IMG/VR virus record: IMGVR_UViG_3300032289_000029
Location: 1 to 31,128 of that record
Reading direction: 5' to 3' (one strand)
Length of the DNA stretch: 31,128 nucleotides
DNA from: a virus
Part shown: positions 1 through 31,128 of the stretch, piece by piece
Numbering within the stretch: position 1 is the first letter of the stretch
How the letters are laid out: every line of letters begins with the position of its first letter
Translations under genes and position numbers: made by a program
Notes under the pieces: generated by a model
The model's input: the letters and a program-made list of their open reading frames with translations, nothing else
Database searches by the model: none
Told to the model about the DNA's origin: nothing

Positions 1-272
1 CATACCCTCCAAGGCTGTCCGTTCCTCCGATACATCAACACTGGTACTTCCCCCGCCTTGCTGCACGACTCCACCTGTTCCGACCATTTATCCACCTGTA
101 ATCTTTCTTGTCGTTTAACTTCAATACGGAACTTCTGAATAGTTATATCGTCAGCTCCATCCCTCGCCTGTCCTAGATTTCTTTTAACTTCAAACCCTAG
201 GTGGTCTTTTAAGATCCCTGCCAGCTCTCGTTCACCAGCTGCTCCCTTGTTGCGCTTACCTCGCCCATTCAT
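1..272 (-). CDS. Holliday-junction-resolvase-like PDDEXK nuclease (partial, runs off left edge)
   Basis: Reverse-strand reading from the ATG at 272 gives an open frame of about 90 codons with no stop before the window edge. The N-terminus is basic and glycine-rich (NGRGKRNKGAAGERE). It carries the layout of a PDDEXK nuclease: an early Glu in GERE (residue ~14), Asp in ARDGADDI (D38, D41, D42) and E51-V-K53 in IEVKRQ. That arrangement matches small Hjc-type resolvases and related phage nucleases, which cut branched DNA in recombination or before packaging. The start overlaps the stop of the RHH gene (ATGA), so the two are probably translated together. The missing C-terminus cannot be assessed. 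Family-level assignment is fairly sure; the exact substrate is inferred. Confidence 0.72.
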   Translation of the reverse strand, partial: MNGRGKRNKGAAGERELAGILKDHLGFEVKRNLGQARDGADDITIQKFRIEVKRQERLQVDKWSEQVESCSKAGEVPVLMYRRNGQPWRV

Positions 273-454
273 ACGGACCCCAGCATCTTGTTTAGCCTGT
301 CCTGAGTGCTGTTATAGCGCTGCTTGAGACTGTCCAGCAACAACTCGTCAATGATTGACGCACGAGATCTGCGCTGCTCACCAGCTGCTCGATCAAGTAA
401 TGCTCTGGTTTCAGGACGTAGCCTAATTAGCAACGTATTGTACTTATTTTCCAT
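269..454 (-). CDS. Small ribbon-helix-helix (Arc/CopG-like) DNA-binding protein
   Basis: The 61-aa protein has a short beta-strand-like segment (YNTLLIRLRPETRAL) followed by two predicted helices around SRASIIDELLLDSLK, the shape of RHH repressors, which bind palindromic operators as dimers of dimers. The start at 454 is well supported by a near-consensus Shine-Dalgarno on the minus strand (AAGGAGGTG, 7-8 nt upstream). It is the first gene of a minus-strand operon with the junction nuclease and faces the serine recombinase across a 154-bp gap that contains a perfect palindrome. Autoregulation through that palindrome is a reasonable inference. RHH proteins can also act as antitoxins, but no toxin is seen beside it. 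Confidence 0.7.
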   Translation of the reverse strand: MENKYNTLLIRLRPETRALLDRAAGEQRRSRASIIDELLLDSLKQRYNSTQDRLNKMLGSV

Positions 455-518
455 CTACACCTCCTTTGTATTGCGCCAAGATATCACAACTGACGTGCGG
501 AGCCACATAATTAGTTAA

Positions 519-548
519 ATTATTTGTTGCATATCGCTGCGATATCAA
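519..548 (-). promoter_or_regulatory. Sigma70-like promoter for the RHH/nuclease operon
   Basis: On the minus strand a TTGATA box (plus positions 543-548, one mismatch to TTGACA) is followed after 18 nt by AATAAT (519-524, one mismatch to TATAAT). Transcription would begin near 511 and leave a leader of roughly 55-60 nt before the ATG at 454. The 15-bp palindrome at 531-545 fills the spacer and touches the -35 box, the classic position for an operator that blocks RNA polymerase. The boxes are seen; promoter activity is inferred. Confidence 0.5.
531..545. promoter_or_regulatory. Perfect palindrome (ATATCG-CTG-CGATAT), candidate operator or recombinase site
   Basis: Six-base arms are separated by 3 nt. 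Weaker symmetry continues outward about the same centre (matching pairs at 528/548, 527/549, 525/551, 523/553, 522/554 and 520/556), so the dyad spans roughly 37 bp. It lies between divergent genes for an RHH protein and a serine recombinase. Either could bind it: RHH dimers use palindromic operators, and resolvases use imperfect inverted repeats as crossover sites. The sequence alone does not decide which. Confidence 0.55.
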
Positions 549-561
549 ATACATTAACGGA

Positions 562-580
562 ACTGGCACTAAAAACCAGT
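562..580 (+). promoter_or_regulatory. Small inverted repeat in the leader of the recombinase operon
   Basis: ACTGG (562-566) and CCAGT (576-580) form a 5-bp stem with a 9-nt A-rich loop, ending 28 nt before the recombinase ATG. The SD (AGGAG, about 597-601) is left outside the stem. It could be a leader hairpin or a second half of a protein-binding site. No clear plus-strand sigma70 promoter was found; TTGTTG at 524-529 has no well-spaced -10. Apart from these elements and the palindrome, the 455-608 gap holds nothing else I can name. Confidence 0.3.
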
Positions 581-608
581 CAATCTACCGAGAAACAGGA
601 GATCTAAA

Positions 609-1256
609 ATGACTAAATATGTAGCTTATTTCCGTGTATCAACTGCCAAGCAAGGACGTTCAGGCTTGGGTCTAGAAGCGCAGCAGGAAGCAGTCAAGCA
701 CTACGCTGATGACATCATTGCTTCATTCACAGAAGTAGAATCCGGCAAGAAAAATAACCGTATTGAATTAGAAGCAGCCATTGATCTTTGCAAAAAGACT
801 GGCGCTACTATATTGATCGCTAAGTTGGATCGTCTTAGTCGTGATGCTGGCTTTCTAATTACTCTCCGCAAATCAGGTATCGGCATTCTTGCTGCTGATA
901 TGCCACACACATCCACCTTGGAATTCAATATCAAAGCAATCTTTGCTGATGAAGAGCGTGAACAGATCAGTAAGCGCACTAAGGCAGCATTAGACGCAGC
1001 CAAGGCTCGTGGTGTAAAGCTTGGTACTAAGTCACCAGCAATCAGCTCTGCGGCTGGTGTAGCAGCTCTGCAAGCTAATGCAGATCAGTTCGCACAGAAA
1101 GTATTGCCAATCATTCGTGACTTAAAAGCAGCTGGTTATACAAGCTTGCGTCAGATCGCAGCAGCACTGACCGAGCGCCAAGTTCAGACAGTTCGTGGCA
1201 GCATTAATTGGTCAGCATCACAAGTATCTAACATCATCGCAAGGGAGGCAGTATGA
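609..1256 (+). CDS. Small serine recombinase (resolvase/invertase family)
   Basis: The 215-aa protein opens with the resolvase signature YFRVS (R9, catalytic S11) followed by TAKQGRSGLG, and has the LDRLSRD segment (residues ~73-79) with conserved arginines. Residues ~90-150 contain the long helix typical of the catalytic domain (FADEEREQISKRTKAAL). The C-terminal ~45 residues (SLRQIAAALTE, then SASQVSNII) form a DNA-binding helix-turn-helix. Family members make serine-linked double-strand breaks and resolve, invert or integrate DNA. At 215 aa it is the small type, not a large phage integrase. An AGGAG Shine-Dalgarno precedes the ATG. It heads the plus-strand recombination operon. Possible roles are dimer/multimer resolution, inversion or integration; none is proven here. 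Confidence 0.85.
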   Translation: MTKYVAYFRVSTAKQGRSGLGLEAQQEAVKHYADDIIASFTEVESGKKNNRIELEAAIDLCKKTGATILIAKLDRLSRDAGFLITLRKSGIGILAADMPHTSTLEFNIKAIFADEEREQISKRTKAALDAAKARGVKLGTKSPAISSAAGVAALQANADQFAQKVLPIIRDLKAAGYTSLRQIAAALTERQVQTVRGSINWSASQVSNIIAREAV

Positions 1257-7714: not shown

Positions 7715-10240
7715 TTACCTCGCTAAAGAATGCTTGAATGGGTTTTCTGCAAATGCTGCATAAATTATTGTTGCTGTACTTCCATTATTTTGTGCATTAA
7801 TTGTTCTTAATTTAAATCCATTAGAAAGAATATCTAAATTGTTTTCTGATATAGATGATATTGCTACGGCATTTTCATTATTGGGCGCATTTGCTGCAAC
7901 TTTGTTATCAGTTAAATTGTAAGTATTTCTTGTAGTATCAAACATCAACCAGTTATTTCCGGCTACTAAACTTTTAAACATAATAAATCTAGGTCTAAAT
8001 CCTAAATAGATAAACATACCATCAGCAGCACCAGTGCCAGTGTATGATCCGAATTTAGAATAACCATCTATTTCTGCAAAGCAGTAAGCTACCATAGTGA
8101 CAGAAGATGCTGAACCATAAGTTCCAACAGAAAATACTGATTGCGTTGGAGCTGCGTTATTCCAAAGAGAGCTATCTGAATTCCATGCGTTTGTCAGATT
8201 TAAATAAATGCCACCGTTTTGCGAGTTGGAAATGCTTGAGTGATATACAACCCAATTATCTGCTCCAGAACTTCTGCGTTTGTAAATTATCATTTTAGGC
8301 GCAATACCTAACCCATGCCCTATGGTTCCACTAGCATTTGTACCTGTCCAAGTAACAATACTAAACCCTGCACTAGGATTAGTATTTACTGTACTAGCAA
8401 TTGATGGAACTCCTGATGAAACAGAACCAATTGATATATTTGTTGTTGTATTACTTGCCTTCCATTGCCAACCAACATAAGTAGCAGTATTTGTATTAAC
8501 TTTAGCTAATGAACCTACCGTAAACCCACTTAACCCAAATGCAGTTAATCCATTAATTTGAGTAGTTTCAAGAGCAGTAGAGTTACTTGCTAAGTCTAAT
8601 GTTGCTCCACGCACTGAGTCATATAATGCGTGATCTGTAGATCCAGAGCGACCTTTAATCCATACAAAATTAGGCTGAAATGAATTACCGTTAACAGTAT
8701 TAGATACAGATAATGCTGACCCTGTACCAGTATAAGTAGTAGCAGCAAACTGTGTAGCACCATTATCAATGGTAGGAGCAGGTAAGTTAAATGAATTAAC
8801 TGCAACGAATCCTGTAGGTGGAGTGTATGAGAATGGACGCTGACCAAAGTTGACTGCAAGCTTATCTACACCAGATCCATACACTGAAACTGATGGAGCG
8901 ATAGCGCCAGTTAAGTTTGTATATGATGCACCAGTACCAGCAGACGGCACACCTTCTAACCATACGTTATTCTTACCAAACCATATGCGACCATTGGTTA
9001 CGTCCACAGCGCATTGCAATACGTCATTAACTACCCAACTTGCAAATGAAGCATTGCTGACATTTACAGTTCCATTGTTGTTGTACTTTGTACCACCAGT
9101 GCCACCATTACATTGGACACCCCAGCCGTTTGCAACTTGACCAGTAAGGTTTGCGTACAATGTTGATGTTGTCTGAATGCCGCAAGCACCAATCATAAAA
9201 AAGTTATTACCACTTAATGCCTGAATTGTTGCTTCAAAATAGAACTTACCGCTAGGCATAAACATACTTGCATGAGCGCCCCGCCACTGACCTGTGACAC
9301 CACTCTTAAATCCTAGATTTGCTTCAGTGTAAGCGCCATTACCAAGACTCGCATTGACTTGAAGAGTAGGGTAGTTACCACGATTGTTGCCGCCATCGGA
9401 GTAAGGTGTTGGTGTATCAATCATCGAATCGTACAGTACGTTATTCGATGGTGTGCCAGTGTAGGCAGATACGTTGATACCGTTTGAAGTCCAGAACTTA
9501 CCGCCACCTGAACTATCCTTACCGATACCCACATTGCTTGATGTAGTAACGGCAGAGTTGTCTTCAAAGTTTAAGTAAAATCCATTAGTGCCGAATGTTC
9601 CTATATATCGTTTTGGCTGCCACACACCAGTGGTAGAGCTAAAGAATCCAAATGATGTAGGAGTTAATGCTTGACCGTCAATGAAGTTTACTTCTGCTAG
9701 GTAGCCGTCAAAATAATTAGATGGCCCAAGGTGAACATCAGCTCCCATATAGGTAGCTGTTGCTGCGTTCATGCCGCCTGTAGAATTCTGAGTAGGGTTG
9801 TTAGTAGTGCTAAATGCTGTTACTTGCAAACCGTTAACATATATTCTGACACGATCTAAAGCCGTTGCATTGGTTGTATCCCAAACAACAACAATGTGAT
9901 ACCACGCAGAAGGGTCACGAAATAATTGTGTTGTTTGCCGCCAAGATGTATTGAATCCAGTAATTCGTAACCCATCCTGAAAAAAATACATAAAGGTTGA
10001 GCCAGTATCATTGCTTGCGGAATTATTAGACAGTAAAAAATACTGAGTTGTACCTGAATCAATCTTTCCTCTTTTTACCCAAGCACTCCAAGTCCATGTT
10101 GTTCTATTTCCAGCACTAGCAGGAGTACGATTAAAATAAGCAGAGTTACTTGAACGTAGTCGCACACTACGCTGGATAGGTAATACCTGATCACCATCAG
10201 CACCACCAAGCAGCAGAGGATTAGCTCCAAGTACGCTCAT
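7715..10240 (-). CDS. LamG/SPRY multidomain tail adhesin
   Basis: The 841-aa protein is built of modules. Residues ~25-200 form a LamG-like concanavalin fold (TWTWSAWVKRG, WYHIVVVWD, VRIYVNG, FDGYLAEVNFIDG). Residues ~320-470 form a SPRY-like domain (GKFYFEATI, NGRIWFGKNN). Residues ~521-838 contain three diverged repeats, each beginning with PNFVWIKG-like, PKMIIYKR-like or PRFIMFKS-like strands and ending in a GWQWK / AYCFAEI / YAAFAENP strand. All three domain types bind glycans or proteins, so it is probably the receptor-binding tail tip. It follows the T7-like fibre gene with a 4-nt overlap. The ligand is unknown. Confidence 0.8.
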   Translation of the reverse strand: MSVLGANPLLLGGADGDQVLPIQRSVRLRSSNSAYFNRTPASAGNRTTWTWSAWVKRGKIDSGTTQYFLLSNNSASNDTGSTFMYFFQDGLRITGFNTSWRQTTQLFRDPSAWYHIVVVWDTTNATALDRVRIYVNGLQVTAFSTTNNPTQNSTGGMNAATATYMGADVHLGPSNYFDGYLAEVNFIDGQALTPTSFGFFSSTTGVWQPKRYIGTFGTNGFYLNFEDNSAVTTSSNVGIGKDSSGGGKFWTSNGINVSAYTGTPSNNVLYDSMIDTPTPYSDGGNNRGNYPTLQVNASLGNGAYTEANLGFKSGVTGQWRGAHASMFMPSGKFYFEATIQALSGNNFFMIGACGIQTTSTLYANLTGQVANGWGVQCNGGTGGTKYNNNGTVNVSNASFASWVVNDVLQCAVDVTNGRIWFGKNNVWLEGVPSAGTGASYTNLTGAIAPSVSVYGSGVDKLAVNFGQRPFSYTPPTGFVAVNSFNLPAPTIDNGATQFAATTYTGTGSALSVSNTVNGNSFQPNFVWIKGRSGSTDHALYDSVRGATLDLASNSTALETTQINGLTAFGLSGFTVGSLAKVNTNTATYVGWQWKASNTTTNISIGSVSSGVPSIASTVNTNPSAGFSIVTWTGTNASGTIGHGLGIAPKMIIYKRRSSGADNWVVYHSSISNSQNGGIYLNLTNAWNSDSSLWNNAAPTQSVFSVGTYGSASSVTMVAYCFAEIDGYSKFGSYTGTGAADGMFIYLGFRPRFIMFKSLVAGNNWLMFDTTRNTYNLTDNKVAANAPNNENAVAISSISENNLDILSNGFKLRTINAQNNGSTATIIYAAFAENPFKHSLAR
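7718..8680 (-). repeat. Three diverged C-terminal modules in the tail adhesin
   Basis: Module starts lie near residues 521, 647 and 749, about 100-125 aa apart. Each has an F/I-x-P-x-F/M-I/V-x-x-K strand, then a W-containing line (DHALYDSVRG, DNWVVYHSSI, NNWLMFDTTRN), then a strand ending near an aromatic run (YVGWQW, MVAYCFAEI, IIYAAFAEN). Sequence identity is low but the pattern is ordered, which suggests old tandem duplication. Confidence 0.6.
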
Positions 10241-30608: not shown

Positions 30609-30857
30609 CTAAAACTGTGACCTTTTCCACAATGCCAGCTCTACAGGTTTAGCACCCAAAGCTTTTAACTCGATAGCCAAGTAGGTATCAAAGTTAGATA
30701 CCCCATAGGCTGGACTAACGTAGACTCGTTCTCGATAATGAGGAATAAAAGTTATACCTCGCAAGATATAGCAGGTATACGTCTCATGCTCCATCATTGC
30801 GCCATGAGGCATCCCAGCATCAGGATCTGGAGTGCGTACTCTTTTCTTGGTAGTCAT
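30609..30857 (-). CDS. 82-aa hypothetical protein
   Basis: The ATG at 30857 overlaps the preceding stop (TGATG). The product has a basic start (MTTKKRVRTPDPDAGMPHG) and a beta-like middle (TYTCYILRGITFIPHYRERV, then SNFDTYLAIELKALGAKPV). No family recognised. It follows an SSB-like gene and is the last protein gene before the structured gap and terminase unit, so a DNA-related early or middle role is possible. Confidence 0.55.
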   Translation of the reverse strand: MTTKKRVRTPDPDAGMPHGAMMEHETYTCYILRGITFIPHYRERVYVSPAYGVSNFDTYLAIELKALGAKPVELALWKRSQF

Positions 30858-31128
30858 CAGAATGGGATATCGTCATCTACATGAGAAGCATTGCCATCAG
30901 TCCTACCTTCAGATCTAGGACGAGCATTACTCTTACTTTCGTACTGACCATCCTTTTCGGACACTGCCAGACTAAAGTATTTTGTACCTGCTTTAGATTC
31001 CTTCAGCCAAGCAGATAAGCGCATTTCAGTACCATTAATATTAATGCTACCAGTGTAATCAGGACTACGCTCGCCCTTCTTCTCTTTCGCCTTAAATAGC
31101 GTGCCACGATTGGTGTTGTCATATTCCA
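30857..31128 (-). CDS. SSB-like / OB-type small protein (partial, runs off right edge)
   Basis: The last 89 residues are present; the N-terminus is beyond the window. The visible part reads YDNTNRGTLFKAKEKKGERS, then DYTGSINING and MRLSAWLKESKAGTKYFSL, a pattern of small phage proteins likely to have an OB-like beta barrel. It ends in a disordered, Ser/Arg-rich linker and the acidic tip DDDIPF, the C-terminal signature by which SSB proteins dock their partners. A ssDNA-binding role is therefore likely and would match the exonuclease/annealing pair at the other end of the window. Confidence 0.7.
   Translation of the reverse strand, partial: EYDNTNRGTLFKAKEKKGERSPDYTGSININGTEMRLSAWLKESKAGTKYFSLAVSEKDGQYESKSNARPRSEGRTDGNASHVDDDIPF

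Follow-up and report, generated by a model that had tools for sequence, protein, structure and literature searches.

The Arc repressor of phage P22 is a small ribbon-helix-helix (RHH) protein, and its operator in Pant is a 21-bp, odd-axis site made of two subsites about one helical turn apart and placed between the -35 and -10 elements. The control region analysed here, which belongs to a viral DNA of 31,128 bases representing an entire IMG/VR record (hereafter the window), looks similar. A dyad of about 21 bp with an odd axis and two subsites lies between predicted -35 and -10 elements, next to the gene of a likewise small protein of 61 aa, for which Arc is the first entry of the Foldseek list; Arc is absent from the PDB sequence search matches of this protein. 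Unlike the Arc system, the putative repressor of the window is linked to a serine recombinase operon, and two predicted operators are arranged around a divergent promoter pair. Switches in which an Arc-type repressor controls its own gene from operators on two divergent promoters are of an already known kind; among the papers listed, none described an RHH protein paired with a small serine recombinase in the phage group of the window, as judged by titles and abstract openings.

Further comparisons come from serine recombinases, toxin-antitoxin systems and anti-defence regulons. Tn3-type resolvases repress their own promoter at res. The window resembles the res regions of Tn3 and gamma-delta (PMC9943657) in that a resolvase-family gene adjoins a divergent control region with possible autorepression, but it has a separate repressor gene and an odd-axis dyad. 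For RelB-type RHH proteins, neighbouring dimers are reported on adjacent symmetric subsites, bound to the same helix face over their own promoter (PMC2812701). The paired RHH dimers proposed here would likewise occupy adjacent subsites over their own promoter; in contrast to RelB, no toxin partner was noticed in the window and its subsite sequence is different (GATATC-like). The acr-aca and archaeal early anti-defence regulons share with our regions a repressor-type promoter site in front of small, variable and unnamed ORFs, which we see in 20 of 66 distinct control regions. However, their regulator Aca8 is a predicted winged HTH protein (PMC11065993), and the window itself has no ORF in this slot. 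The closest named phage by terminase (76% identity) and capsid (78%) is the Methylophilales phage MEP301, in which the gene order is similar and a serine recombinase is followed by a YqaJ exonuclease. The MEP301 recombinase differs from that of the window, with 36% identity across 180 alignment columns. MEP301 gave no RHH match, and it holds no strong odd palindrome from position 33,147 to the end of its record. Its gp55 is an HTH protein that looks related by eye to an HTH-like protein of our relative L011. The MEP301 paper describes a resolvase-domain protein, and the available part of its text contains no word beginning with "repressor" (PMC8024684).

The sequence-only reading had placed the dyad between genes for an RHH protein and a serine recombinase, and both assignments held. 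The recombinase gene (609-1256, plus strand) encodes 215 aa, which is the size of resolvases and invertases, and is the first gene of a plus-strand operon that continues with the YqaJ exonuclease and a Sak annealing protein. It matches the resolvase domain PF00239 with an E value of 2.3e-25 and a PHROG named "DNA invertase". Its FRVST and LDRLSRD motifs, which we take to hold the catalytic residues, align with gamma-delta resolvase, and hence the catalytic domain with the active-site serine is recognisable from both the PF00239 match and the motif alignment. The gene on the other side (269-454, minus strand) is predicted by family comparison and fold matches to encode an Arc-like RHH repressor of 61 aa. 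Its Arc-like PHROG match is weak (E 0.0016), and in Pfam it matches TacA1 alone, at an E value of 0.034 and below the curated cut-off. When 15 members of the RHH family were scanned at E<=1, TacA1 was found in 11, RHH_1 in nine and Arc in five; the best E values among them were 0.0008-0.0028, and all matches are weak. The AlphaFold monomer (mean pLDDT 80) shows helices at residues 14-27 and 31-59, and the strand was not called. The top Foldseek rows were Arc, TacA1, PutA and AmrZ, with a probability of 0.97 for both Arc and TacA1 at E values of 0.1 and 0.24, and no match reached E<=0.001. Structure comparison gave Z values of up to 6.6 to RHH proteins and 5.4 for the best Arc chain, all of them below 8, a range in which the tool itself cautions that a match may mean a common arrangement only. 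The model and the family comparison point to a ribbon-helix-helix fold of the 61-aa protein.

The palindrome ATATCGCTGCGATAT, i.e. ATATCG-CTG-CGATAT, occupies positions 531-545 exactly as claimed before, and its axis falls on T538, so that it can also be written as the perfect odd-axis palindrome ATATCGC-T-GCGATAT. We refer to it as O1 and consider it likely, from sequence comparison, that it is the core of the main operator of the adjacent Arc-type RHH repressor. An extended imperfect dyad, given previously as about 520-556, does exist as well; its measured extent is 522-554, with arms of 16 nt that are 75% complementary. Taken as a 21-mer (528-548), O1 comprises two 10-bp subsites and one central base pair. 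A perfect odd palindrome of 15 bp occurred in 29 of 3000 shuffles of the region 455-608, and a perfect palindrome of either axis type with 7-bp arms in 58 of 3000. Moreover, the whole window has five perfect odd 15-bp palindromes where 2.4 are expected, and under a looser test for nine symmetric pairs the control region of the window gave p 0.14 and that of L123 p 0.33. Across 31 representative lineages, the same test reached p<=0.05 in eight for odd axes and in none for even axes. The symmetry of O1 is thus mildly unusual and by itself modest evidence; the site is significant because it is conserved among relatives.

The 15 bases of O1 are intact in all 14 distinct control regions of the close family, the window counted. 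We aligned the segments of 17 close loci by anchoring on the dyad, and the identity to the window varies there between 57 and 100% at 501-530 and between 59 and 98% at 546-608. A search for the 19-mer TGCATATCGCTGCGATATC gave 19 IMG/VR contigs, each holding it a single time; all 19 have the recombinase gene or its first codons and 18 have the RHH gene, the remaining one (L010) being a contig that starts inside the control region. The view that the dyad is a chance palindrome of an AT-rich promoter, which the 29 shuffles with such a palindrome and the p value of 0.14 in the looser test would allow, is hardly credible, given that O1 is intact in all close-family regions while its flanks have diverged and that in distant relatives its arms change on both sides. 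The recombinase gene of the close family is a mosaic. In 14 of the 17 loci, positions 701-1000 are 67-78% identical to the window and both ends of the gene (609-700 and 1001-1256) are 80-99% identical, which looks like an exchange of the catalytic part. The 13-mer TATCRCNGYGATA was also considered as a third operator, O3, after an extra copy located 2.7-3.5 kb to the left of O1 in six close-family contigs (L002, L011, L015, L017, L018 and L033) had initially been read as a second promoter site. We did not count it because it lies inside a 46-aa minus-strand ORF (1638-1778 in L002 and 2200-2340 in L011), is degenerate in L008 and is missing from L031 and L005; the operator-like 13-mer in this ORF is probably a coincidence. 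In a scan of 30 records allowing at most one mismatch to TATCRCNGYGATA, 20 matched, and a second site outside the family was seen in G010, G013 and G030.

RHH relatives comprised 67 loci from a single-protein search and the best 80 of 149 from an alignment search. The recombinase lies upstream of the RHH gene in 49 of 53 distinct upstream stretches, the other four (L156, L176, L180 and L181) holding only 19-391 bases at this place. L085 has 776 bases there and no recombinase match, and in relatives of L085 the recombinase gene starts 725 bases away. A full separation of the RHH gene from the recombinase gene was not seen among the relatives examined. The total of 159 loci, many of them overlapping, was reduced to 66 distinct control regions, which were scanned for odd-axis dyads. 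Thirteen of them scored below 5 and four were removed by hand as ill-fitting, which left 49 accepted regions, or 46 once repeats are removed; since regions and dyads are related to each other, the counts given for them are not independent. The sequence-only reading had asked whether relatives with the same two genes also conserve the dyad. This holds for the close family, but in the wider sample about a quarter of the distinct regions lack a clear dyad; L059, L063, L075, L077, L144, L175 and L177 have none. When odd and even axes were scored alike, the odd dyad ranked first among the palindromes of 26 out of 37 regions.

In the distant relatives, odd-axis dyads are found at a similar place and still on the recombinase promoter. 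Their arms read, for example, ATATCGC, GTATCAC, TGTTGCAC, CTATCGC, ACTGCAC, TGTCGC or TAGCGC, the changes usually being two-sided, and the 49 accepted regions hold 25 distinct 21-mers. In L027, whose recombinase is 60% identical and whose RHH protein is only remotely related (27%), the dyad reads GATATCG-TAA-CGATATC. Outside these loci, no RHH match was found in 50,697 phage records, and a scan of the genome collection with one peptide pattern (nine stretches) confirmed no RHH relative; one distant recombinase of 45% identity was detected there in Hymenobacter (50 stretches).

The internal structure of the dyads argues for paired binding subunits. For 25 related dyads, the self-pairing within half-sites is 2.52 of 5 compared to 1.33 +/- 0.17 after permutation, a value that none of 2000 permutations reached. 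Each half-site is a pseudo-palindrome centred 5.5 bp from the axis (0.50), a centre at 6.5 bp being nearly equal (0.47). All 34 distinct half-sites carry a C at position 3 counted from the axis, and 28 of them have a C at position 1. With half-sites that are themselves symmetric, the operator resembles a pair of dimer sites spaced by about 11 bp. Such symmetric subsites, about one turn apart, would suit two RHH dimers side by side.

Both flanking genes have candidate promoters that overlap with the dyad. The sigma70-like minus-strand promoter described around it earlier (519-548) leads to the RHH gene and consists of TTGATA (548-543), an 18-nt spacer and AATAAT (524-519). It agrees with 10 of 12 consensus bases, and a scan of 300-900 found four promoter-like sites compared to 1.0 +/- 0.8 in shuffles. 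The idea that this promoter is not conserved, with TTGATA lost in relatives, was overturned by an explicit pattern scan. The arrangement of [G/T][C/T]GATA within the dyad, 17-18 nt and AATAAT or AATATT was found in 22 of 27 regions of the window's class and in 14 of 2700 shuffles, the pattern being framed post hoc and 14 of the 22 regions being closely related to each other. TTGATA itself occupies the -35 place in the window alone among these 27; the others have GCGATA or GTGATA provided by a dyad arm, and in the window and L033 the spacer is about one helical turn shorter and the other dyad arm is used. A recombinase promoter, not named in the sequence-only reading, is predicted on the plus strand (527-555), its spacer taken up by the dyad; with TTGCAT (527-532), 17 nt and TACATT (550-555) it is weak (7 of 12 consensus bases), and TTGACA versions occur at about the same place in relatives of the L019, L055 and L166 types. 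A better match (9 of 12), ATCACA-17-CATAAT at 483-511, lies farther from the recombinase, has similar counterparts in some relatives and could compete with it. Counted without a shuffle background, 25 of 45 listed regions have the dyad inside the spacer of a plus-strand promoter; another 18 have a -10-like hexamer whose end lies 17-20 bp ahead of the axis and would place the dyad near +12, and two of 45 show neither arrangement. In the window's class the dyad overlaps both promoters, therefore one bound repressor would cover both.

A second, weaker copy of the operator, O2, which the sequence-only reading did not mention, is predicted at 468-486 just upstream of the RHH start codon and reads GTATTGCGC-C-AAGATATCA. 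It corresponds to the direct repeat D1, in which 466-486 and 527-547 are 71% identical, and none of 300 shuffles gave an equally good profile match. O2-like matches were obtained in 37 of 44 distinct RHH-upstream regions at p<=0.05 and in 31 of 44 at p<=0.01. An alternative minus-strand -10-like hexamer, TGTGAT (483-488), is located at the edge of O2 and reads TATGAT in several relatives; generally, 52 of 56 distinct regions have a -10-like hexamer at 18-40 nt before the RHH start, with 23.2 +/- 3.5 and a maximum of 33 in shuffles. The weaker copy near the RHH start would fit autorepression. In some control regions of a second class (L069, L091 and others), an additional inverted repeat with TAGGGTTTATCCCTA or a similar sequence is found in the stretch from O2 to the recombinase promoter.

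With two potential DNA-binding proteins at its sides, the dyad could also be bound by the serine recombinase, which would repress its own promoter without cutting. We regard this explanation as unlikely, even though it accounts for a part of the data. Almost all relatives seen have the site ahead of the recombinase gene, the catalytic motifs FRVST and LDRLSRD are present, and dyad distances correlate with the distances of both proteins (0.677 for RHH and 0.641 for the recombinase). The partial correlation is 0.441 for RHH given the recombinase and 0.354 for the recombinase given RHH, neither of which was reached in 2000 permutations; when only the C-terminal part of the recombinase is taken, its link given RHH is lower at 0.236 (reached in one of 2000 permutations), which speaks against recombinase binding. 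The same is true for discordant pairs at high identity. In 57 pairs with at least 75% identical recombinases and at most 62% identical RHH proteins, the dyads agree at a mean of 11.8 of 19 positions (range 5-16), i.e. the dyad changes when the recombinase is conserved and the RHH protein has diverged. For the opposite case, at least 85% RHH and at most 62% recombinase identity, four pairs with dyads alike at 17 of 19 positions exist, which are L153, L154, L155 and L157 each compared with L160 (RHH 100%, recombinase 51-52%) and represent one event. Linkage could explain this RHH-dyad match because these best four pairs are one event and an ORF intervenes between dyad and recombinase in L160. 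Pairs in the middle range do not discriminate the two proteins, as the mean is 12.7 of 19 at 63-70% RHH and 45-56% recombinase identity (39 pairs) and 13.3 of 19 at 63-70% recombinase and 40-56% RHH identity (108 pairs). Compared to the window, L123 shares 18 of 19 dyad positions at 67% RHH and 51% recombinase identity, and L019 shares 14 of 19 at 61% RHH and 67% recombinase identity. Some dyads are similar despite diverged RHH proteins, as 16 of 19 positions agree between L089 and L002 at 46% RHH identity, and 17 of 19 between L152 and L026 at 45% RHH and 44% recombinase identity. Furthermore, the dyads of the 49 accepted regions keep a distance of 46-163 bp from the RHH start compared to 28-571 bp from the recombinase start, and symmetric half-sites are not expected where one recombinase monomer binds per half-site. 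On this basis the operator appears to co-vary with the RHH protein.

Binding of O1 by a different protein, from either host or phage (for instance by an HTH-like protein whose gene lies further to the left in L011), is still less probable. This reading gains from the fact that the dyad is tied to the RHH protein by co-variation only. However, symmetrical changes of the site between phages are not what one would expect for a host factor, and MEP301, with its HTH protein gp55 and no detectable RHH protein, lacks a strong odd palindrome in the stretch scanned.

The sequence-only reading had offered the crossover site of the recombinase as one of two readings of the dyad, with the consequence that recombination would cut and rearrange the control region itself. 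This reading is disfavoured to the point of being very improbable. The site adjoins the recombinase gene, the control regions are mosaic, and in L009 and L014 the divergence from L007 begins immediately 3' of the dyad; but identity breaks at many other places too (268/269, about 700, about 1000 and 1256). The axis of the dyad falls on a base pair and not between two bases, whereas serine recombinases exchange strands around a central 2-bp overlap, as stated in PMC11607074, and even-axis palindromes are not enriched in any of the 31 lineages. The perfect copy occurs once per record in 10 records, namely the window and nine relatives, several of them fragments, an attachment site in a host being possible. 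A second copy within two mismatches is absent from the window, and two pattern-based genome scans found no prophage form.

The other reading offered, an RHH operator, is well supported by conservation, by the discordant pairs at high identity and by the symmetry of the half-sites. Symmetry, conservation, co-variation, overlap with predicted promoters and a second, weaker site can all be read from the sequence as signs of such an operator. Binding by the RHH protein, its stoichiometry, repression and timing are what we infer for it. If O1 is the main RHH operator, two RHH dimers would sit about 11 bp from each other on the same helix face, one on each 10-bp subsite. The bound tetramer would then cover the recombinase promoter between its -35 and -10 elements and the RHH promoter, which faces the other way, in its -35 region. 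One tetramer on O1 would switch both promoters off, and O2 at the RHH start would add autorepression. This switch would probably restrict the early plus-strand operon of recombinase, exonuclease and Sak annealing protein or set its timing, and in this sense the earlier proposal that the dyad sets the early transcription choice is plausible.

The locus would provide a regulatory handle, consisting of a predicted repressor, its operator and two promoters, for a phage group that is known here almost only from metagenomes. Furthermore, the 49 regions with their 25 distinct 21-mers represent a natural set of predicted RHH-operator pairs for studying the evolution of DNA recognition by beta-sheets. 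A more far-reaching idea is that the RHH protein acts as master early repressor of an uncultured phage group, guarding a promoter ahead of a hypervariable gene slot and the recombination operon, with operator arms that diversified together with the protein; we hold this to be speculative and rather doubtful. If true, the slot genes possibly serve counter-defence or host takeover, and the 25 distinct 21-mers would stand for many specificities that could be separate immunity groups.

The slot is a variable place between the dyad, or its supposed position, and the recombinase, and it is worth screening for counter-defence genes. It contains one to four small ORFs in 20 of the 66 regions (L009, L024, L026, L060, L061, L066, L069, L070, L072, L077, L079, L081, L089, L090, L091, L136, L144, L152, L160 and L163), in total 30 ORFs in 18 clusters according to mechanical ORF calling. 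Representatives of 10 of the 18 clusters gave no Pfam match, and two of them match PHROGs of unknown function. One family of slot ORFs recurs across lineages, for example in L009 and L061. The gene after the recombinase (1253-1540 in the window) is variable as well, with 64 ORFs in 14 clusters, and the ORFs of the window and of L011 at this place belong to different clusters.

Some minor observations concern other parts of these genomes. A scan for Rfam families at gathering score detected none in L002, L011 and L015. The ends of the window (1-272 and 30857-31128) cut a PDDEXK and an SSB gene, which lie about 2.5 kb apart in the relative L011, and this stretch is absent from the window. Upstream of SSB in L011, the positions from about 1970 to 2200 are strongly conserved, show no obvious gene and no Rfam match, and may represent an RNA or an origin. 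Finally, among the 25 listed of 36 inverted repeat pairs in the window, one of 33 nt and 73% match (9073-9105 and 9864-9896) lies within a virion gene of 841 aa.
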